Positions 3,885-21,608 of a DNA stretch of 64,000 nucleotides are shown here, piece after piece. Every line of letters starts with the position of its first letter. Position 1 is the first letter of the stretch. The stretch comes from an uncultured Pedosphaera sp. (GTDB lineage Bacteria > Verrucomicrobiota > Verrucomicrobiia > Limisphaerales > Pedosphaeraceae). Below the pieces are notes generated by a model. It saw only the letters and a program-made list of their open reading frames with translations. It was not told the origin of the DNA and made no database searches. The stretch is taken from positions 62,001-126,000 of the forward strand of contig CAIXFN010000118.1 of NCBI GenBank assembly GCA_903918755.1. The letters run 5' to 3'. A program made the position numbers and the translations under genes.

Positions 3885-5341
3885 GCGCCCACCCCCACGG
3901 TCTTGTTCGCGCCCGCCAAAAAGACGGTGGTCGAAGTTTTAAAGAATCGGAACAACATCAAAATCAAATTGAGCAGGAAGATCGCATTCCCCAGAATCAT
4001 CAGCAACTCACCCAGAGTGCTTCCCCGGATGGCCATCAAGCTACCCTTGACCACGTTGAGGAACGGGACAGTCGCGTCATTCATGGAGGAACCCTGAATG
4101 ATCCCGCCGACCGCAAGAGGCACCACGTAAAAAAGTACGCCGATCGCGCAAAGCAAGAAACTGGCTTTACCGAGCAGCAGGTCAGTTCCAGCCACCGGAG
4201 CGAGGCGCGGGACGATGTAATAAATCGCACCGATCATCGTCATGGTAAAAAATCCATAGACCAGCATTTCCTGTTGCGCAGGAATGAACCAGGTGAAATT
4301 CGTCACCACACTCACCGCAATGGGTTGGGAAACCACCGCCATCAAGGAGGCCACCGTAAAGGCCAATACACCGAAGGGGATGAACAACTCCGGAATGGTG
4401 CGCACCGCATGGCGATCCGCCTGGCGCAAGGTCTTGGTCAAATTCAGGAAGGTAGCCAGAATTGCGGCCACCATCAAAAAGGCTCCCAGCGTGCTCACCG
4501 CGGGAATCCAAGAAGGAACCGGTGCCGCAGCGGGAATGCCCGCCCAGGAGCCAAACAAGATGAGGCTCCAAAAAGTAAACAATCCCATGTCCCGGCTGTA
4601 CAGTGGCGCTTTCGCAAACTTCGGCGCGAAGGCAAAGCCCACGGCCAAGCCCATCAGCACCAGCCAGACATTGCCAAAATTGTTCATATACCACCAACCG
4701 ACGACGGACTGCATCACGCCACGCACCGGCCAGATGACCAGCAGAAGGCTGGCGGTAGTAAAAATCCAAGGGAACCAGAAAAACGCCGCCAGGATGAACC
4801 ATTGGGCCATCTGCAGCGGACCCGGTTGGCGGTTCTTGAAAGTGAGCAATCCAGCAAGTCCAATCGGCAGATAACCAGCGAACAGGAACGCGCTGGCATA
4901 GCGGGGAAACTCCAGCCATTCATGCCCGGTGTTATCACCGAGGAAAATTCCGACCACCCCGAGCGTCACTCCCACGTTCCAAAGCAACCACCCCAAGATC
5001 ACCAATGGGATGCCCGTGAGTTTGGCCTGACCGAGGTGGGCCGCCAGCCAGAGCAGGACGCCCAACCCCGCCGGGGCCGCGAAGCCGTAGAGGAGCGCAT
5101 TGATCGCCGCCGGGTGGGAACGGCCGTAACTGAAGGCCGCGCAGTCGGCGAAAAGCGTGGGTTTGTGAAAATTAAGGGAGGAAATGAGCCCAAGAACGGA
5201 TCCTCCGACCAACCAGAGGGCCGCGCTAAGAAAAAGCAGCAACAGCACCCGCGCCGAAAGATCCGTCTCCGCCGGGGAAACAGCGGGGTTCGCGTCAGGG
5301 GCCGTCCCGGCCGGCTGCGATTGGGAGATAGTCGCGCTCAT
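3881..5341 (-). CDS. CcoN-like heme-copper oxidase subunit I homologue lacking the metal-binding histidines
   Basis: A 486-residue polytopic membrane protein (about 12 helices) that follows the CcoN pattern through most of its length: SYGRSHP..N, WWYMNN, FWSLILFGSWAG, GAIYYIVPRL. Compared from memory with Pseudomonas CcoN, the low-spin heme histidine is A79, the CuB ligand in WYGHN is N220, the CuB pair HH is P270-A271, and the heme ligands in GHVH are Q356 and E358. The cross-linked tyrosine is G264. These substitutions would prevent binding of heme b, heme b3 and CuB. The gene is long, uninterrupted and in a normal operon, so it appears to be maintained. The ATG at 5341 is chosen because a TTG at 5365 lies inside the upstream gene. 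Confidence 0.85.
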   Translation of the reverse strand: MSATISQSQPAGTAPDANPAVSPAETDLSARVLLLLFLSAALWLVGGSVLGLISSLNFHKPTLFADCAAFSYGRSHPAAINALLYGFAAPAGLGVLLWLAAHLGQAKLTGIPLVILGWLLWNVGVTLGVVGIFLGDNTGHEWLEFPRYASAFLFAGYLPIGLAGLLTFKNRQPGPLQMAQWFILAAFFWFPWIFTTASLLLVIWPVRGVMQSVVGWWYMNNFGNVWLVLMGLAVGFAFAPKFAKAPLYSRDMGLFTFWSLILFGSWAGIPAAAPVPSWIPAVSTLGAFLMVAAILATFLNLTKTLRQADRHAVRTIPELFIPFGVLAFTVASLMAVVSQPIAVSVVTNFTWFIPAQQEMLVYGFFTMTMIGAIYYIVPRLAPVAGTDLLLGKASFLLCAIGVLFYVVPLAVGGIIQGSSMNDATVPFLNVVKGSLMAIRGSTLGELLMILGNAIFLLNLILMLFRFFKTSTTVFLAGANKTVGVGA

Positions 5342-13897: not shown

Positions 13898-14983
13898 TCA
13901 TCCTCCCCCCCACGGGGGCAACAAGCGCCGGAATCCATGTCCCAGAATCACCACCAGAAAGACCAGGTTCCTGATGAGCACCCCCGGCCAAAAAACCCGG
14001 ATCGGCCCCAAAGTTTGTTTTCCCCGCCTTTGCTCCGTCAGGCGGCCCGCCACCCGCTCCACGAATCCCACCGAACGCGGCCACTCGGCGATTCCCGCCA
14101 CCCAGGCGGACGGAATCGCTTCCCGCCCGCCGACCGCGCCAGCCAAAGCGCCCAGAATCGCACCGGTGGTGTCGGTGTCACCTCCGCAATCCAGCACACT
14201 CGTGAGCGCCAACCGGAAATCCCGCGGATGGCGCGCCCAGGCGTAGATGGCCATCGGAACCACGTGCAGCGCATAGCCAGTCACCCCCTGCCCCAGCCCA
14301 AGTCGCACGGCAAAATCCCCCACGGAACTACCAACCGCCAACGACTCCTCCATCTGACCCAAGAGTTTCCGCCATTGAGGTTCCGCGGAGAGCGCAAGCA
14401 GGACTTCCAACAACTCGGCCACCGGCGGTTGCCCTTGGCGCCGCACGCTCAGCGCTGCCAATTCAGCCACCGCCAGGGCCGCCGTCTCCGCCTGCCACCC
14501 CCGATGCGTCAACCGGGTCGAGGCCGCCACAAATTCCCGTCGCCGTTGGTGATCCCTGGCAAAATAGGCGCCCAGAATCGCGCTCCGCATCGCCGGTCCA
14601 CTCCCGCCCGACAGCACCGCCGATCTTCCGGCGGGAAATCCGAGCCATAACTTTAAACAAGCTTTGGCCGTGGCCCACCCTACCCCGCCCGGCAAACCGA
14701 GAAACCACCAGCGCAGCTTCCAGCCCAGAATCCGCTCGAATCGCCGGACATCCTCCGGTTCCGCCAGTAACGCTTGCGCCACCATCAGCGTATGCTCCGT
14801 GTCATCGCTGATCATTCCCCGCCCCGCCACCAACCGCATCCGCCAGTCTCCGTTCCACCGCTGTCGAATCCGCCGGGGCGAAAGACCTTCGGCGGGCAAC
14901 CCCAAGGCATCCCCGACGGCCGTGCCGAGCAAAACGCCGGCGTAAACCTCAGCGGGAACCTGCTCTGGCTCGGTGCCTTCCAT
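13898..14983 (-). CDS. ADP-ribosylglycohydrolase (DraG-like) with C-terminal hydrophobic segment
   Basis: Removes ADP-ribose from modified substrates using a dinuclear metal centre. The 361-residue protein has the N-terminal GTAVGDALG signature, the metal-binding SDDTEHT motif at 59-65 and the second metal motif CGGDTDTTGAILGA around residue 268. A C-terminal hydrophobic stretch (GVLIRNLVFLVVILG) is unusual for this soluble family and may tether it to the membrane. It is the last gene of the six-gene NAD/ADP-ribose operon, 5 bp after the Nudix gene. Confidence 0.88.
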   Translation of the reverse strand: MEGTEPEQVPAEVYAGVLLGTAVGDALGLPAEGLSPRRIRQRWNGDWRMRLVAGRGMISDDTEHTLMVAQALLAEPEDVRRFERILGWKLRWWFLGLPGGVGWATAKACLKLWLGFPAGRSAVLSGGSGPAMRSAILGAYFARDHQRRREFVAASTRLTHRGWQAETAALAVAELAALSVRRQGQPPVAELLEVLLALSAEPQWRKLLGQMEESLAVGSSVGDFAVRLGLGQGVTGYALHVVPMAIYAWARHPRDFRLALTSVLDCGGDTDTTGAILGALAGAVGGREAIPSAWVAGIAEWPRSVGFVERVAGRLTEQRRGKQTLGPIRVFWPGVLIRNLVFLVVILGHGFRRLLPPWGGG

Positions 14984-14988
14984 GCCAC

Positions 14989-15519
14989 TTAATCCCGCTC
15001 ATCCTCGTGCCGCCGGATAAAATACAACCCGGCGTAAACTTTAGGATCAATCAGCAGGCCCTCCTGAGCCCGCTCCGCCAGCCAGTCGTGCACTTCGGCC
15101 AGAGGGACCTCATGCACTGTGATTTCCTCATGCGCCACTCCCCCACCCCCGCCCACGCGTTGCAAATCGGTTGCCAAAAAGAGGGTCACGATCTCCGAGC
15201 CCATCCCGCCCGAGGACGGGCCGGTCGTCAGCGGCTGCATTTTGCCCGCCGCGAACCCGGTCTCCTCCACCAATTCCCGCCGGGCGGCTTCCGCCTGGGC
15301 CTCCCGACCTTCACCCGGCTCATCGCCGATCAACCCGGCCGGCATTTCAATGGTCCGGGCATGCACCGGGATCCGGTATTGCTCCACCAGCAAGACTTTC
15401 TGCTCCGCGGTCACCGCGGCAATGATTGCCGCGCCGGAGGCGTTGGTGCGCTCGGCATATTCCCAATGCCCTTCCCGGATCAGTGCCAGGAATTTGCCCG
15501 TGTGGAGGATGGTCTTCAT
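14989..15519 (-). CDS. Nudix hydrolase, ADP-ribose pyrophosphatase-like
   Basis: A 176-residue Nudix enzyme. The box runs from about G62 to E86 with the core REL.EETGF (RRELVEETGFAAG). The motif EQYRIPV upstream and the EMPAGLI lead-in are typical of ADP-ribose pyrophosphatases, which split ADP-ribose to AMP and ribose 5-phosphate. Its start overlaps the upstream NAD-kinase-like gene as ATGA. Acting together with the downstream ADP-ribosylglycohydrolase it could consume the freed ADP-ribose, an inference from the operon. Confidence 0.88.
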   Translation of the reverse strand: MKTILHTGKFLALIREGHWEYAERTNASGAAIIAAVTAEQKVLLVEQYRIPVHARTIEMPAGLIGDEPGEGREAQAEAARRELVEETGFAAGKMQPLTTGPSSGGMGSEIVTLFLATDLQRVGGGGGVAHEEITVHEVPLAEVHDWLAERAQEGLLIDPKVYAGLYFIRRHEDERD

Positions 15520-16517
15520 TCCACCAAAATACCTTTCCTTTCCGCAATGCCGATCGTCGCCTGAGTGCCCGAATTGAACTCCAGAAAGTCCTGCTCGATG
15601 CCGTCGCTGAAAATAACGCCGTTCTCCGCCATGCGGGATTCCAGCACCAGCGGCGCTTCCGGCGTCACCCGCCCGAAAACCAGTGTCGCCCCCGTGGTTT
15701 GGGTCGGGAACGGTTCGCGCACCGTGTAAAACAGGTAGTTACCATCCCACGCGAATTCCGTCTTCACGTTCAATCGCACTTTTTTGTCGCCCTTCTCACC
15801 GGTTCGTGGTGGGGCGAAAAGGTCGCCCGTGGTTTGTCGCACGAGCGCGGCCCCGGCCGCCTGCGTGATCGCCGCCGCTCCGGTCAGGAGACTTTTCAGC
15901 CAGCCCGTCGAACCCAAGCCCGTGGAAATAATCACCCCGCTCGATGACTGCGCCTCGGTGGCCCCGCCAATCCGGATGAGGTACCGCGCCGAGCAATGGG
16001 TTTTGGGTCCAATGAACAGATCATTGACGCCATACATGACCTGGCCGTTGTTGAGGGTCGCCTTGGCCATGGTCACGGTTTTCCGCTTCCGTCCGCCCCG
16101 CATTACCTCCGGCACCACCTTGGCCAGATCCGCCACCCGGAAAGGGAGTAATCGGCCATCCCAGCGCCCGGGATCCGGGTTGACGCCCACAACCGGCTGG
16201 CCGCTGAGATACTTCAACGTGTTGGCCACCAACCCGTCCTGGCCCAGCGTCACAATCGTGTCTTCCGGGCCGAACAGGTAATTGGGCAGGAATCCCCGGC
16301 CCAAGGTGTGCACCCGGCCGACCTGCGACAACGCCCCTTGGGCGGCCACCAGCGCGTGGTGATAGGTCTCATCCTCGCGCTGGTAATCAGTGAAATCCGC
16401 GCCCTGATGCTCCACATAGAAGCGCGCCTGGCTGACGGTGTTGAAGCGCGTCACCAATTCCGCCAGGCGCGTCGGCCGCGTCACCAGGACAATTTTATTT
16501 TCGGTGAGCCGGTTCAT
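15516..16517 (-). CDS. NAD-kinase-like / sugar-kinase-like protein
   Basis: 333 residues related to the NAD kinase/diacylglycerol kinase superfamily. The usual GGDGT nucleotide motif is replaced by LGQDGLVANTLKYL, and GVNPDPGRWDG and STGLGSTGW correspond to the NAD-kinase segments that contact NAD. The altered GGDGT motif makes canonical NAD phosphorylation uncertain; it may act on another NAD-related substrate. Start and stop overlap the neighbouring genes by 4 bp, so it is translationally coupled in the ADP-ribose operon. The exact reaction is unknown. Confidence 0.72.
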   Translation of the reverse strand: MNRLTENKIVLVTRPTRLAELVTRFNTVSQARFYVEHQGADFTDYQREDETYHHALVAAQGALSQVGRVHTLGRGFLPNYLFGPEDTIVTLGQDGLVANTLKYLSGQPVVGVNPDPGRWDGRLLPFRVADLAKVVPEVMRGGRKRKTVTMAKATLNNGQVMYGVNDLFIGPKTHCSARYLIRIGGATEAQSSSGVIISTGLGSTGWLKSLLTGAAAITQAAGAALVRQTTGDLFAPPRTGEKGDKKVRLNVKTEFAWDGNYLFYTVREPFPTQTTGATLVFGRVTPEAPLVLESRMAENGVIFSDGIEQDFLEFNSGTQATIGIAERKGILVE

Positions 16518-17539
16518 TGGCGGGCCGGGGGCGAATTCAACAGTTCCCGGAGCAAATCCGGCGAGATGTTGAGCTGCCCGATTTTCTCCGCCTTGGCTGC
16601 CAGTTCCTGGAAGGCAAAGGCGATCAACTGCTCCGGCTTCATGCCGCCGGCGGTGATGGCCTGCAGGATCTTCGGATCGGCCGTCGCCAGCGCCTGCATG
16701 GTGGATGCCACACCGTAGGCACGGGCATCCGCTTCCGCCCGCGCATTCTCAGCGGCCAGCGACACCAAGCTCTTGCGCCGGTCTTCGAGCGCGATGCCGG
16801 CTTCCAGCGCTTCCTTTTGCTGGACATGCAACCGTTCCTGCACGGCGCGCTCGGCCTCCATCTGGGTCTCGCGAATCTGACGCTTCTTATTCTCCACCGC
16901 GATCTCCGTGTTCAGCTCATTCTCCTTGATGGCCCGCTCCTGCTCCACCGCGGAATTCCGCCGCGCATACACCGCTTCATCGGCTTCCCGGAACAGCCGC
17001 TCCCGGGTTTCCGCTTCCAGCGCGCGCGCCGTCTCCGGCGTGGGTTTGATGGCCAGAATCGACAAGCCCAAAACTTCCAATCCCAGCGCGGTGATTTCCT
17101 CCGCCGCCACCAACCGGGTTTTCACGGCCCGCACCAGTTCATCCGAGGCGCGGATGGCCTGCCGCAGCGGCAGTTTCTGCAATTCACCCCGGGCCAGCAC
17201 GTTGATCACATGGATCACCCGCTCCGGGAGCTTTTCCGGATCTTCCGCCGCGTAACTATGACCGTTCGGTCCCAGGGTGTAATTCAGCAACCCCGCCAGG
17301 CGCTTGGGATCCACCACCCGGTAGGTCACCTGTCCCTGGATGGTCACGCCCTGGTAATCCGCGGTGGTTTCCTCAAAAATGAATGGCGCATCCGTGCTGG
17401 CCACCGGCACCGCCACCAGGGAGGTCGAGGGCGAATAATAGAAAAACGACAACCCGGTGCCTTCCCGCACCACCTTCCCGCCCCGGTACTGGAGCAAGTA
17501 GGTCGTCGGCTGAACTTTGATGAATTTGATTCCCAACAT
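16514..17539 (-). CDS. SPFH/Band 7 domain protein
   Basis: A 341-residue SPFH (stomatin/prohibitin/flotillin-like) protein. Residues up to about 170 form the SPFH domain, followed by a long charged coiled-coil rich in Glu, Arg and Ala (about 180-280, e.g. EQERAIKENELNTEIAVENKKR) and a helical C-terminus. There is no clear membrane helix at the N-terminus, unlike many stomatins. SPFH proteins form oligomeric rings or membrane scaffolds. It sits 46 bp after the NrtR gene and overlaps the NAD-kinase-like gene by 4 bp. The reason for coupling with NAD metabolism is unclear. Confidence 0.88.
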   Translation of the reverse strand: MLGIKFIKVQPTTYLLQYRGGKVVREGTGLSFFYYSPSTSLVAVPVASTDAPFIFEETTADYQGVTIQGQVTYRVVDPKRLAGLLNYTLGPNGHSYAAEDPEKLPERVIHVINVLARGELQKLPLRQAIRASDELVRAVKTRLVAAEEITALGLEVLGLSILAIKPTPETARALEAETRERLFREADEAVYARRNSAVEQERAIKENELNTEIAVENKKRQIRETQMEAERAVQERLHVQQKEALEAGIALEDRRKSLVSLAAENARAEADARAYGVASTMQALATADPKILQAITAGGMKPEQLIAFAFQELAAKAEKIGQLNISPDLLRELLNSPPARQ

Positions 17540-17585: not shown

Positions 17586-18308
17586 TCAAATCTCAAAATG
17601 AAGCCCGCGCTGTTTGAGTTGCTCATATTTCTCCGCATCGAACCGGAATAACTGTGCCGGCCGGTGACGCCCGGCCATTTGGGTTTCGTTCAATGGCACC
17701 AGCAAATTAAGGCCCAAGACCTTCTTGCGGAAATTGCGCTTGTCCAACGGCGTCCCCAATACCGCCTCATAAACATGCTGGAGCTGCGACAGGGTGAATT
17801 TCGGCGGCAGCAATTCAAATCCCACCGGTTGATAGCGCAATTTGCCCTGCAACCGGGCCAGGGCGGTCGCCAGGATTTGCTCGTGATCAAAGGCCAGGGG
17901 CGGCACCGCCGCGACCGGAAACCACCGGGCGTCCCGGGCGTCGGTGTCCGGCCGCGCCGCATGCGCCGCCCGCTTGACCAGAGCGTAATACGCCACGCTC
18001 ACCACCCGTTCCCGCGAATCCCGGTCCACCGCCCCAAACGTAAACAATTGTTCCAGATAGACTTCCCGCAAGCCCGCCTCCTCCTCCAGTTCCCGCCGCG
18101 CCGCCGCTTCCAGCGTTTCTTCCACCCGCACAAACCCGCCGGGCAAGGCCCATTGTCCACGAAACGGGTCCAGCGCGCGCTCGATCAGCAGGACTTTCAA
18201 CTCCCCCTCGTCCAGGCCAAAAACGACACAATCGACGGTCAATGCCGCGCGGGGATACTCATATATATATTTCGCGCCGGGCGGGGCTTGTGTTGTTAAT
18301 GGTTTCAT
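17586..18308 (-). CDS. NrtR-family Nudix transcriptional regulator
   Basis: A 240-residue fusion of an N-terminal Nudix domain (box at about 57-80: [22 protein letters not shown]) and a C-terminal winged-helix domain (about 160-240, containing [15 protein letters not shown] and [11 protein letters not shown]). NrtR proteins repress NAD-metabolism genes and sense ADP-ribose or related molecules through the Nudix domain. The box here keeps the REL.EE core, so catalytic activity cannot be excluded. It overlaps the first gene as ATGA. An inverted repeat in the operon promoter is its likely operator. Confidence 0.88.
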
Positions 18309-18718
18309 TTTTCCTGGGCATATCCTTCGGCCCGCATCCCGCTCGCCGCCCCGGGCAAATCCTCCGCCCCAAATTGGGCAATCACCTCAATCAGACCGAC
18401 GATATTGCGATTCATTTCCGCGAGTTCTTCGGCGGGAATCCACAGTTCCTGGTGCAGGGAACCACCCACCGTTTGCACCGGATACTTCCCGGCGAACTCC
18501 CGCCGCAGTTCGAACCGCGTCACGAAACCTGCGCCGGAGGCGGGCACATTCCACTCACGGGCGATCCGCCGCGCGTAAGCCTCGGTGAGCACCGGATAAA
18601 AAATCGGCTGCTCCGGCAACCGGGGCGGGAATTCCCGGAAACCTGCGGCAGCGATCAGCGCCAGCTCCCGCGGCCCCACCGGACGATACAATTTGAAGGT
18701 TTCCTCGTTCATGTTCAT
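18305..18718 (-). CDS. small 'ADP-ribosylation/crystallin J1'-type protein
   Basis: 137 residues, first gene of the NAD/ADP-ribose operon. It belongs to a widespread family often labelled 'ADP-ribosylation/crystallin J1', recognised by LYRPVG near the start, [15 protein letters not shown], a following Y.R.I...WN, and the end pattern [19 protein letters not shown]. No enzyme activity is established to my knowledge. Conserved Arg, Tyr and Glu could suit an ADP-ribosyltransferase-like fold, which is only a guess. ATG codons at 18718 and 18712 are both possible; the former has GGATTACG upstream. Confidence 0.72.
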
Positions 18719-18731
18719 GTTTCGTAATCCA

Positions 18732-18760
18732 TATTTAGTGTATCCTGAACACTATGTCAA
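18732..18760 (-). promoter_or_regulatory. promoter with palindromic operator of the NAD/ADP-ribose operon
   Basis: On the minus strand TTGACA (18760-18755) is followed after 17 bp by TAAATA (18737-18732), a good sigma-70-type promoter pointing at the operon. The spacer is filled by a perfect inverted repeat, TAGTGT-7 bp-ACACTA at 18736-18754. A repressor bound here would block RNA polymerase. NrtR, encoded second in the operon, is the obvious candidate. The leader to the ATG at 18718 or 18712 would be only about 7-13 bases. Confidence 0.6.
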
Positions 18761-18896: not shown

Positions 18897-19160
18897 GAAA
18901 CTGGATTAACCGTCCGGAAGTTGAATTCGTCCGACGGCAAATGACAGTCCACGCCTCACGGGACCGCATAAATGCGGAACTCCGAACCTGGGAAGCCGTG
19001 GGCGGTTCGTGGAGAAACTGGATTAATTGTCCGCAACCTGGACTCAATCAGCGGTAAAGGACGCATCGAGCCTCACCCGACCGCATAAACGCGGAACTCC
19101 ATACCTCGCAGGGGCGATCTGGCGTTTCGTGGCGAAACTGGATTAAGTGTCCGCAAGGGC
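18897..19160. repeat. left part of a degenerate 117-120 bp repeat array
   Basis: Copies of a repeat marked by GAAACTGGATTAA start at 18897, 19014 and 19134 (spacing 117 and 120). Each unit carries the short palindrome CCGCAT-AA-ATGCGG or a variant (18964-18977, 19081-19094), then GGAACTCC. No reading frame is conserved between copies. The array resumes at 20097 on the far side of a toxin-antitoxin pair. The rest of 18761-19407, including a related degenerate segment at 18781-18896, has no gene that I can support. Confidence 0.8.
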
Positions 19161-19231
19161 GACCCCGCTTCGCCTGCGGCTACGCAGGGCAGGCGGTCAG
19201 GTGGTTGGCTGGAGGTCCATCTGGGTTGTCG

Positions 19232-19256
19232 AATCCTGACTCGTTTAGTCAGGATT
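19232..19256. repeat. perfect 10-bp stem hairpin
   Basis: AATCCTGACT (19232-19241) and AGTCAGGATT (19247-19256) form a perfect 10-bp stem with a 5-base loop CGTTT. No T-run follows on either strand, so it is not a typical terminator. It is followed by GGTTCGAATCC, which looks like a tRNA T-loop but has no matching tRNA body. Confidence 0.6.
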
Positions 19257-19407
19257 AGGTTCGAATCCGTGACCGAATTTTCGGCCGGTTATTGATTCAA
19301 GGCGACGCGGGTGGCGGGGTGCCGTGTGCGCTGCGGGTTGTCTATCCCTCCCCGACTTCCCCCGCAAATCGCTAGCAAAGACGTAATTTTTCAGGCAGGG
19401 TAAGGTC

Positions 19408-19644
19408 ATGAGTAAGGTTTTGGAAATTGAGGCAGCCTTGCGCCAATTGCCCGCCCAAGAGCAATGGGAGGTTGCCCGCTGGCTGCTGGATGCGTTGGAA
19501 GCAGGGAACGCCGGTGCGACCCAACCGTCGAATGGTGGCAGTGTTTCCGCGTTGCCGGATTATTCCACCCGACGCCGCCGCATCTTTGGGGACAAGGTTC
19601 TCCCCAACCTGGTGCTGATGTCCCGCTCGGAAGAACGGTGTTGA
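19408..19644 (+). CDS. antitoxin of a PIN-domain toxin-antitoxin pair
   Basis: 78 residues. The N-terminal half (MSKVLEIEAALRQLPAQEQW) resembles small helical antitoxins found before PIN toxins. The start is preceded by GGGTAAGG, a reasonable ribosome-binding site. Its stop overlaps the start of the PIN toxin gene, the usual arrangement. The partner toxin is interrupted by a stop codon, so the pair is probably no longer functional. It splits the 117-120 bp repeat array, suggesting insertion into it. Confidence 0.65.
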   Translation: MSKVLEIEAALRQLPAQEQWEVARWLLDALEAGNAGATQPSNGGSVSALPDYSTRRRRIFGDKVLPNLVLMSRSEERC

Positions 19645-20078
19645 AGACCTACGCCGACACGAGTTTGCTGTTCTCGCTTTATGCGACGGACGCCAATTCG
19701 CCGAAAGCCGACGCTTGGCGCACGGCCAACCCTGACCCTTTGCCCTTCACCGCGTTTCATCGCCTTGAATTGCGGAACGCCCTGAATCTCGCCGTTTTTC
19801 AAAAGCGGCTGACTCCGATGGAAGTTTAATCCGCCTGGCAGGAAGTGGAGAATGATATCGCCGCCGGGTTATTGGTGGTCACTGGCGGTCTGTGGCACCG
19901 GGTTTTCGGGGAGGCGGAATCCATCGCCGCGAATTACACGGCAGCCGTCGGTTGCCGGACGCTGGATGTCCTGCACGTTGCCGCTGCCAAACTGATCGGC
20001 GTGACCGAGATTTGCACTTTCGACACGCGCCAAGGCGAGTTGGCGAAGAATATCGGAATGACTGTCATTATCCCGTAG
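19638..20078 (+). pseudogene. PIN-domain (VapC-like) toxin with an in-frame TAA
   Basis: Reads from GTG at 19638 (VLKTYADTS) and is interrupted by TAA at 19827-19829, after which the same frame continues to 20078. The joined product would be about 145 residues and keeps all four acidic PIN positions: ADTS (D), LELRN (E), TLDVLHV (D) and CTFDTR (D). PIN toxins are Mg-dependent RNases. The single nonsense codon between EV and SAWQEVE suggests a recent inactivating point change, for example from CAA. Confidence 0.75.
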
Positions 20079-20089
20079 GGGCATGCCCT

Positions 20090-20880
20090 CCAAGGCGAAG
20101 CTGGATTAAGCTTGTGGAACCTGGACCCGATCCGAGGCAACCGGCTGGAACATGTCTCATCGGACCGCATAAACGCGGGCCTGCCCTCCGAAGCTGGCAA
20201 GGGAAAGCGGGAACTCCGTGCCTGGAACGGGCGTGGGGCGAGTTCGTGGTGAAACTGGATTAAGTGTCCGCAACCTGGACTCGTCCGATGGCAAATGACA
20301 ATCCATGCCTCACCGGACCGCATAAATGCGGAACTCCATACCTCGGAGGGGCGACCTGGCGTTTCGTAGCGAAACTGGATTAAGTGTCCGGAACCTGGAA
20401 TCGTCCGACGGCAAAGGACGGCTCACGCCTCACCGGACCGCATAAATGCGGAACTCCGTACATGGGAAGCCGTGGACGATTTGTCGCGAAACTGGATTAA
20501 GTGTCCGGAACCTGGACTCGGCCGGCGGCAAAGGACGCCCACGCCTCACCCGACCGCATAAATGCGGAACTCCATACCTCGGAGGGGTGATCTGGCGTTT
20601 CGTGGCGAAACTGGATTAAGTGTCCGCAAGGGTGACAGGTGTGTCTTCTCCGAAAACAAGGGGAAGTTGCTCACGCGGAGACGCGGAGGGCGCGGAGGGG
20701 GCCGAGGTTACCGGAAATTCGACATGCCATTCCTCACCGTGCGCGGACTGGTGGCGCGCGAAACTGGATTAAGTTTGTGGAACCTGGACTCGGCCGGCGG
20801 CAAAGGACGGCTCACGCCTCACGGGACCGCATAAATGCGGACTGCCCTCCGAAGCTGGCAAGCGAAGGGGAGAACTCAAT
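20090..20880. repeat. right part of the degenerate 117-120 bp repeat array
   Basis: Six further copies of the (G)AAACTGGATTAA-marked unit begin near 20097, 20251, 20371, 20488, 20607 and 20760. The CCGCATAAATGCGG palindrome or the AAACGCGG variant lies at 20165, 20318, 20438, 20554 and 20827. A shared segment ACCTCGGAGGGGCGA..TGGCGTTTCGT precedes most copies. The region between 20880 and 21347 holds degenerate repeat sequence and no gene that I can support. Confidence 0.8.
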
Positions 20881-21347: not shown

Positions 21348-21608
21348 ATGCAAGTCATCATTCAATTGCCCGACGAGATTGCCAAGCATCTGGGCGATGC
21401 CGGCCACATGCCGCGCCGCATGCTAGAGGCGTTTGCCGCGGAAGCCTATCGGACACAAAAGCTTTCGCGCCATCAATTGCGCCAACTGCTGGCGCTGGAT
21501 TACTGGCAGACCGACGCATTCATCAGTCAGCACGAGGCCAACCGCCCTTACACGATGGCGGATCTCCAAATTGACCGCGATTCGCTGGCAACCCTGCCGC
21601 AAAAATGA
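21348..21608 (+). CDS. UPF0175-like antitoxin
   Basis: 86 residues starting MQVIIQLPDEIAKHLG, with the family pattern of UPF0175/antitoxin proteins: a central ML.AFAAEAYRTQKLS.HQLRQLL helix-turn-helix-like segment and a C-terminal tail. Such genes precede DUF3368 PIN-like toxins. Its stop overlaps the start of the toxin remnant (ATGA at 21605-21608). A longer reading from 21246 has no family support. It lies just beyond the repeat array. Confidence 0.72.
   Translation: MQVIIQLPDEIAKHLGDAGHMPRRMLEAFAAEAYRTQKLSRHQLRQLLALDYWQTDAFISQHEANRPYTMADLQIDRDSLATLPQK

Follow-up and report, generated by a model that had tools for sequence, protein, structure and literature searches.

NrtR operators of NAD genes are reportedly palindromic with a GT-N7-AC core, as Rodionov in 2008 and Huang in 2009 are said to have described. 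Characterised NrtRs are described with impaired Nudix boxes. Among proteins of solved structure, the nearest relative of the NrtR studied here is BtAraR of Bacteroides thetaiotaomicron (7e-56), a member of the NrtR family, and SoNrtR comes next. BtAraR was crystallised on GTGT-N7-ACAC DNA (PDB 5BS6 set; PMC4666351). Major-groove contacts by Asp178, Lys179, Arg180, Asn181, Arg183, and Lys184 and minor-groove contacts by Lys204 and Arg205 are described there, and the authors state that the GTGT motif is defined by these major- and minor-groove interactions (PMC4666351). The same report calls NrtR motifs highly variable between groups (PMC4666351). Other described operators look different from the one analysed below: this holds for the Mycobacterium NrtR motif, given as GTTTTCGA-N7-TCGAAAAC, and likewise for the Streptococcus motif (PMC6800001). 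NadQ is described as having a C-terminal DNA-binding domain homologous to that of NrtR, and it differs from the present system in operator sequence (consensus ttATRCTCannntGAGYATaa), spacing, and sensor domain (PMC5343134). Finally, ADP-ribosylglycohydrolase operons under Nudix-HTH repressors, in planctomycetes as well and with Macro and NADAR companions, have been predicted to act in defence against viral ADP-ribosylation (PMC9503650).

Here, we analysed a perfect inverted repeat, TAGTGT-N7-ACACTA, in a stretch of 64,000 nucleotides from an uncultured Pedosphaera sp. (hereafter the window, meaning the whole stretch). Judging from sequence comparisons, NrtR, a repressor of NAD metabolism, very probably docks at this palindrome. 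The palindrome shares with the BtAraR operator, as published, the GTGT-N7-ACAC core and a 21-bp semipalindromic layout, and the two proteins have the recognition helix DKRNFRK in common. BtAraR is reported to control arabinose genes and to answer L-arabinose (PMC4666351), whereas the window operator precedes an ADP-ribose operon. In addition, the outer bases of the BtAraR operator vary in the published description, whereas the window operator has TA...TA, and the pocket residue Gly89 of BtAraR is an Arg in the window NrtR.

Results

Promoter and operon in the window

Read on the minus strand, a perfect −35 hexamer, TTGACA (18760-18755), was followed by 17 nt (18754-18738) and by a weak −10 hexamer, TAAATA (18737-18732), which matches TATAAT at three of six positions. 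The predicted NrtR operator TAGTGT-N7-ACACTA (18736..18754, minus strand), called from sequence and conservation, abuts the −35 hexamer, and its final two bases double as the opening TA of the −10 hexamer. With the flanking A/T on each side, it covers 21 bp (18735-18755). The initial annotation had described TTGACA and TAAATA 17 bp apart with the palindrome filling the spacer, and the sequence bears this out. The promoter is absent from the promoter-scan output; the scan demands a final T in the −10 hexamer. The first downstream start codon is the ATG at 18718, and because it lies only 13 nt past the −10 hexamer, the leader would be very short.

Six minus-strand genes, overlapping or with gaps below 50 bp, follow this promoter. 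The first, orf1 (18305..18718), encodes 137 aa with no Pfam match and a predicted ADP-ribosyltransferase-like fold. The second is nrtR (17586..18308), as had been annotated. Then come genes for an SPFH/Band 7 protein (16514..17539), an NAD-kinase-like protein (15516..16517) with weak matches only (NAD kinase models at E 0.003-0.008, far under cut-offs, and no Pfam match), a Nudix hydrolase resembling ADP-ribose pyrophosphatase (14989..15519), and an ADP-ribosylglycohydrolase (13898..14983), with which we take the operon to end. About 330 bp further on, cytochrome c and Fe-S genes begin. The NrtR protein combines a Nudix domain with an intact Nudix box and an NrtR winged helix (DKRNFRKK); it matched PF21906 (99.8 bits) and PF00293 (81.4 bits) over their cut-offs and the NCBIfam NtrR equivalog at 177.5 bits, under the cut-off of 400.

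Upstream of the operon, a repeat-rich stretch (18962-20840) held seven plus-strand copies of GACCGCATAAANGCGG, a sequence present in 11 exact copies in the genome, none of them on the opposite strand of the contigs. The same neighbourhood encodes, on the plus strand, an antitoxin-like UPF0175 protein near a PIN-domain reading frame (19408-20078 and 21348-21608). The PIN-domain frame at 19845-20078 scored just under the Pfam cut-off and looks broken by a stop around 19829.

The orf1 product

No Pfam or NCBIfam model matched orf1, and its sequence found no match up to E 5 among solved structures. A predicted model (pLDDT 85.5, from 5 sequences) resembled ADP-ribosyltransferase folds, with a best Foldseek E of 0.007 and a best VIA Z of 9.2, and the lists of structural matches include RhsP2, diphtheria-type enzymes, Tpt1, ParT, and PARPs. 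Residues R12, Y41, Y48, H89, and E91 are invariant in five homologues. Taken together, the model is suggestive of an ADP-ribosyltransferase-like fold. Homologues were present in 9 of 196 genomes of the order, and orf1 stood in runs with pncB, pncA, or nrtR in four loci (L117, L157, L159, and L165).

The palindrome in the window and in its genome

By itself, the palindrome is not significant, because the window contains 22 perfect 6-N7-6 inverted repeats; palindrome statistics were therefore rejected as sole evidence. Scanning the window with three mismatches gave two matches, fewer than the shuffle average of 3.87, so that only the exact match is informative there. In the 7.19-Mb genome, the exact motif occurs once, in the window. 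With up to two mismatches, 20 further places appeared, every one with exactly two, and each of the six that were inspected fell inside some open frame of 112 aa or more. One of these six, the symmetric AAGTGT-N7-ACACTT on C18, also stands 68 bp before a Glucosamine_iso (PF01182) gene. The backwards control pattern likewise occurs once exactly in this genome, and allowing two mismatches raises its count to 132 places, vs 21 for the motif; thus, the lone copy is unremarkable and its location is what is remarkable.

We also scored the window with a matrix trained on 69 sites from outside the Verrucomicrobiota, whose loci were set aside by hand on the basis of record titles. The operator scored 22.6 and the next best place in the window 7.1; the best places in ten Markov copies reached 2.6-13.6, and the reversed window reached 17.0. 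Relatives hold 13 pairs of tandem sites 22-23 bp apart. No second, tandem site was found in the window, which has one site, the next best matrix place being 14 kb off.

The initial annotation had suggested a search for the motif before other NAD genes of the same genome. This gave no support: there was no second exact copy, and pncB was not found in the window genome with either a relative's protein or PF17767, a model that matched 16 of 58 relatives and 5 of 14 controls. Since the genome is 97% complete, the absence of pncB is likely rather than certain. NadE gave a distant match only.

Recurrence beside nrtR

Relatives of NrtR were gathered by protein similarity alone, which yielded 80 loci in genomes of named species and, within the order, matches in 11 of 58 genomes. 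The motif was counted in 90 loci (901,906 bases; L007 was excluded as being the same contig as L018). Exact TAGTGT-Nk-ACACTA occurred 42 times at k = 7, in 41 loci; the remaining values of k between 0 and 15 gave none. One exact site, in L071, comes from Persicirhabdus sediminis, a culturable relative. TAGTGT was the commonest 6-mer arm at this spacing, the runner-up having 6 sites (runs of N apart), and five rearranged palindromes gave no exact and at most four one-mismatch places, vs 42 and 39 for the motif. The best place had at most one mismatch in 66 of the 90 loci and two in 9, and in the other 15 nothing was closer than three mismatches; among these siteless loci, L062 begins inside nrtR, and L051 has just 382 bases before it.

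These sites have a consistent position. Counting those with at most one mismatch in annotated loci, 76 of 86 lay no more than 300 bp from the start of a gene for NAD or ADP-ribose metabolism, namely nrtR (44), pncB (17), ADP-ribosylglycohydrolase (6), pncA (3), orf1 (2), a PRPP-synthetase-like gene (2), nadE (1), and nadV (1), and 10 adjoined no recognised NAD gene. This tally and the oriented set below exclude L118, where a SIR2-like gene starts 21 bp behind an exact site, and L120, with an exact site and no NAD gene. Once oriented, the 76 sites had A or T on both outer flanks in nearly every row, and we therefore took the operator to be 21 bp long. TTGAC[AT] abutted the operator at 20 of the 76 and on the far side at 4; by gene, it did so at 14 of 44 nrtR sites, both orf1 sites, 2 of 6 glycohydrolase sites, 2 of 3 pncA sites, and none of the 17 pncB sites. 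At 27 of the 76, TAnnnT started at the operator's last TA. From these register counts, the promoter geometry of the window is a recurring design, found at none of the pncB sites.

The closest parallel was L021, whose orf1 and NrtR are 71% and 75% identical to the window proteins. There, TTGACT-TAGTGT-N7-ACAC-TAAATA precedes orf1, with an N7 that differs from that of the window, and the order behind the operator is orf1, a NADAR gene (L021:5173-6684), and nrtR. Absence of the motif before orthologous operons had been named beforehand as evidence against an NrtR operator, and in L021 the motif is present, before orf1.

Reach across the order, the phylum, and other phyla

In the order, 7 of 58 genomes had exact sites: G000, G002 (three), G006 (two), G007 (two), G019, G045, and G051. 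The backwards control had exact copies in 5 of 58. NrtR itself is patchy, with matches in 11 of these genomes. Exact sites accompanied an NrtR at least 62% identical in 6 of 7 genomes (own genome included) vs 1 of 51 others (Fisher p 1e-6, a statistic that ignores relatedness). The seventh, G054, has one two-mismatch site and no exact one. The single site of G019 lies on a different contig from nrtR, with no recognised gene adjoining, and the pncB-nadE-nrtR-pncA locus of that genome has no site within two mismatches. G006, which is 75% complete, has one exact site ahead of pncB-nadE and a second about 270 bp upstream of an NAD-kinase reading frame; no NrtR match was found in this genome. Of the three sites in G002, one precedes the nrtR operon, one precedes pncB-orf1 on another contig, and the third is 21 bp upstream of a SIR2-like gene. 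This last gene (L118:2922-3992, minus strand, operator at 4013) gave weak Pfam and PADLOC matches; it is possibly an NAD-consuming or defence enzyme under NrtR control.

Across the phylum, we drew 288 genomes. An NrtR match (E<=1e-20) was found in 42, of which 5 carried an exact site; six genomes in all had one, vs about 33 for the backwards control. Because the control was present in more genomes, exact matches are not enriched phylum-wide, and the exact pattern is a poor NrtR marker at this scale; the matrix works better. Individual genomes varied: G240 has an exact site about 290 kb from its 42% identical NrtR, the NrtRs of G394, G397, and G406 are 72-74% identical with only two-mismatch sites, and G453 has an exact site without an NrtR match.

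Given this weak exact-match result, we scored 14 further Verrucomicrobiota NrtR loci (L150-L152 not included) with the matrix. A place scoring at least 19.6 was present in 13 of the 14, and in 12 of these 13 no more than 46 bp separated it from the matched start of nrtR or pncB. The remaining one, in L164, lay 11 bp before a NADAR gene (L164:3819-5080), itself followed by nrtR. The best place of L158 was weak (9.7), 63 bp before nrtR. Away from such genes, the best place in the 14 loci scored 7.5. NADAR genes thus stand directly before nrtR and behind the operator in two Verrucomicrobiota loci, L021 and L164.

Exact sites beside nrtR or pncB were also present in Planctomycetota, Cyanobacteria, Myxococcota (Polyangia), Armatimonadetes, Bacteroidota, and Spirochaetes (groups by record titles). 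Twelve whole genomes of other groups held 17 exact places (0-4 per genome, in 11 of the 12), and the backwards control had 6 places, in 3 of the 12. Inspection of 16 of the 17 showed that 8 start nrtR, pncB, nadE, pncA, or glycohydrolase genes and that 8 have no recognised gene start, one of the latter sitting just behind nrtR. The operator spans phyla and belongs to a known kind. The initial annotation had seen in the palindrome an NrtR operator for this phylum; conservation beside nrtR and NAD genes supports the NrtR operator, but it is not particular to the phylum, since other phyla carry it. No paper giving this operator for NrtR was among the literature matches listed; the two founding NrtR papers were outside the coverage of that search, and we make no claim that the motif is unpublished.

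Predicted DNA-reading and effector residues of NrtR

In the alignment, the six helix residues by which BtAraR contacts the major groove, Lys179, Arg180, Asn181, and Lys184 included, are all identical in the window NrtR. In the wing, Arg205 is kept, and Lys204 is replaced by His. All 66 NrtRs encoded at loci with a site of one mismatch or none keep the same six residues. The divergent NrtRs of L013-L017 each have at least one of the six changed, and their loci have no site closer than three mismatches. Among the 15 siteless loci, 9 NrtRs keep all six residues, and one was unreadable. The NrtR branch studied here seems uniform in its operator.

As for the effector, the equivalents of the SoNrtR ADP-ribose contacts Arg41 and Arg98 are both Arg in the window NrtR. 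The Arg98 equivalent is Arg in 62 of 66 relatives with a site and Gly in BtAraR. SoNrtR Asn43 corresponds to Leu and Lys76 to Glu; the latter is the last Glu of the Nudix box, which accounts for the substitution because the box is complete, in the window NrtR as in 71 of 90 relatives. The arabinose pocket of the AraR subfamily, Phe36, Leu67, and Gly89, reads Leu46, Glu77, and Arg99 here. ADP-ribose is the most likely effector of the window NrtR, and the protein may hydrolyse this ligand.

Discussion

The conservation of sequence, spacing, and position beside nrtR and NAD genes, together with the co-conserved DNA-reading residues, makes us rather confident that the palindrome would serve as the operator for the product of the second gene, NrtR, which would repress the operon until ADP-ribose releases it. 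An NrtR dimer would read GTGT-N7-ACAC with one recognition helix per half-site. Lying across the promoter spacer, it would keep RNA polymerase off and repress the operon, nrtR included. A rise in ADP-ribose, a breakdown product of NAD, would lead to its binding to the Nudix domain and to a movement of the winged helices; NrtR would then leave the operator, and the operon would be expressed. The ADP-ribose pyrophosphatase of the operon, and possibly also the intact Nudix box of NrtR, would remove the signal. Binding, repression rather than activation, ADP-ribose as the effector, and resetting are what we infer.

That the palindrome came about by chance in a promoter spacer, with no regulator attached, would agree with the abundance of perfect 6-N7-6 repeats in the window and with the single exact copy that the backwards control also has in the genome. 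However, sequence, spacing, position, and partner genes are conserved in loci chosen without the motif, which makes this very unlikely, to the point of being hardly credible. A different possibility is that the operator is real and that its regulator answers another ligand, NAD or a sugar as in BtAraR, or activates. The nearest solved relative, with the same recognition helix, is indeed reported to respond to L-arabinose (PMC4666351), and two SoNrtR positions, Asn43 and Lys76, are Leu and Glu in the window NrtR. Against this possibility, the equivalent of SoNrtR Arg98 is retained, as opposed to Gly89 in BtAraR; the target genes of relatives belong to NAD salvage and to ADP-ribose metabolism, and an operator in the −35/−10 spacer is in a repressor position. 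We regard this possibility as unlikely.

The operon might instead be an ADP-ribosylglycohydrolase-centred conflict system, in which ADP-ribosylation by a phage or toxin would free ADP-ribose, NrtR would switch the operon on, and the operator would be part of a defence switch. The glycohydrolase and the Nudix-HTH repressor of such systems are present, along with a Nudix enzyme and the predicted ADP-ribosyltransferase-like fold of orf1; NADAR and Macro genes lie beside nrtR in L164, and the patchiness of NrtR in the order would fit as well. Yet the published systems are described as chosen for lack of a coupled ADP-ribosyltransferase or sirtuin (PMC9503650), whereas orf1 is predicted to be ADP-ribosyltransferase-like. 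They are also described as often tied to phosphatases and chaperones (PMC9503650), none of which appeared in the Pfam matches of the six operon proteins, and a PADLOC scan of five operon proteins matched no model. Besides, in L157, an exact operator is followed by a single run of pncB, nadE, orf1, nrtR, pncA, and the SPFH and NAD-kinase-like genes, an arrangement pointing towards NAD salvage. We consider a conflict system quite improbable; it competes as an account of what the operon does and leaves the reading of the operator untouched.

Returning to the NrtR operator, its NAD-metabolism targets in relatives are pncB, pncA, nadE, and nadV, and the window genome has its exact site only at the ADP-ribose operon. 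Gene order suggests that this operon is a relative of an NAD-salvage operon like that of L157, minus the salvage genes. A broader picture, which we hold tentatively and which may well need revision, is that, in one NrtR branch, the 21-bp operator has stayed almost unchanged across many phyla. Here, the repressor would have lost its NAD-salvage targets and would govern only an ADP-ribose cycle made up of orf1 (as a new small ADP-ribosyltransferase-like family), the glycohydrolase, the ADP-ribose pyrophosphatase, and the NAD-kinase-like and SPFH proteins, and its intact Nudix box could hydrolyse its own signal.

What the analysis provides is an exact operator for a broad NrtR branch, in Verrucomicrobiota, Planctomycetota, Cyanobacteria, Myxococcota, and other groups, so that NAD regulons in this branch become readable from sequence; the rationale for the code comes from a crystal structure. 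Shared operators also link unnamed genes, orf1, SPFH, and the NAD-kinase-like gene, to NAD and ADP-ribose metabolism; in G002, a separate contig carries this operator ahead of pncB, with orf1 following. The ADP-ribose operon is the part that would reward work.
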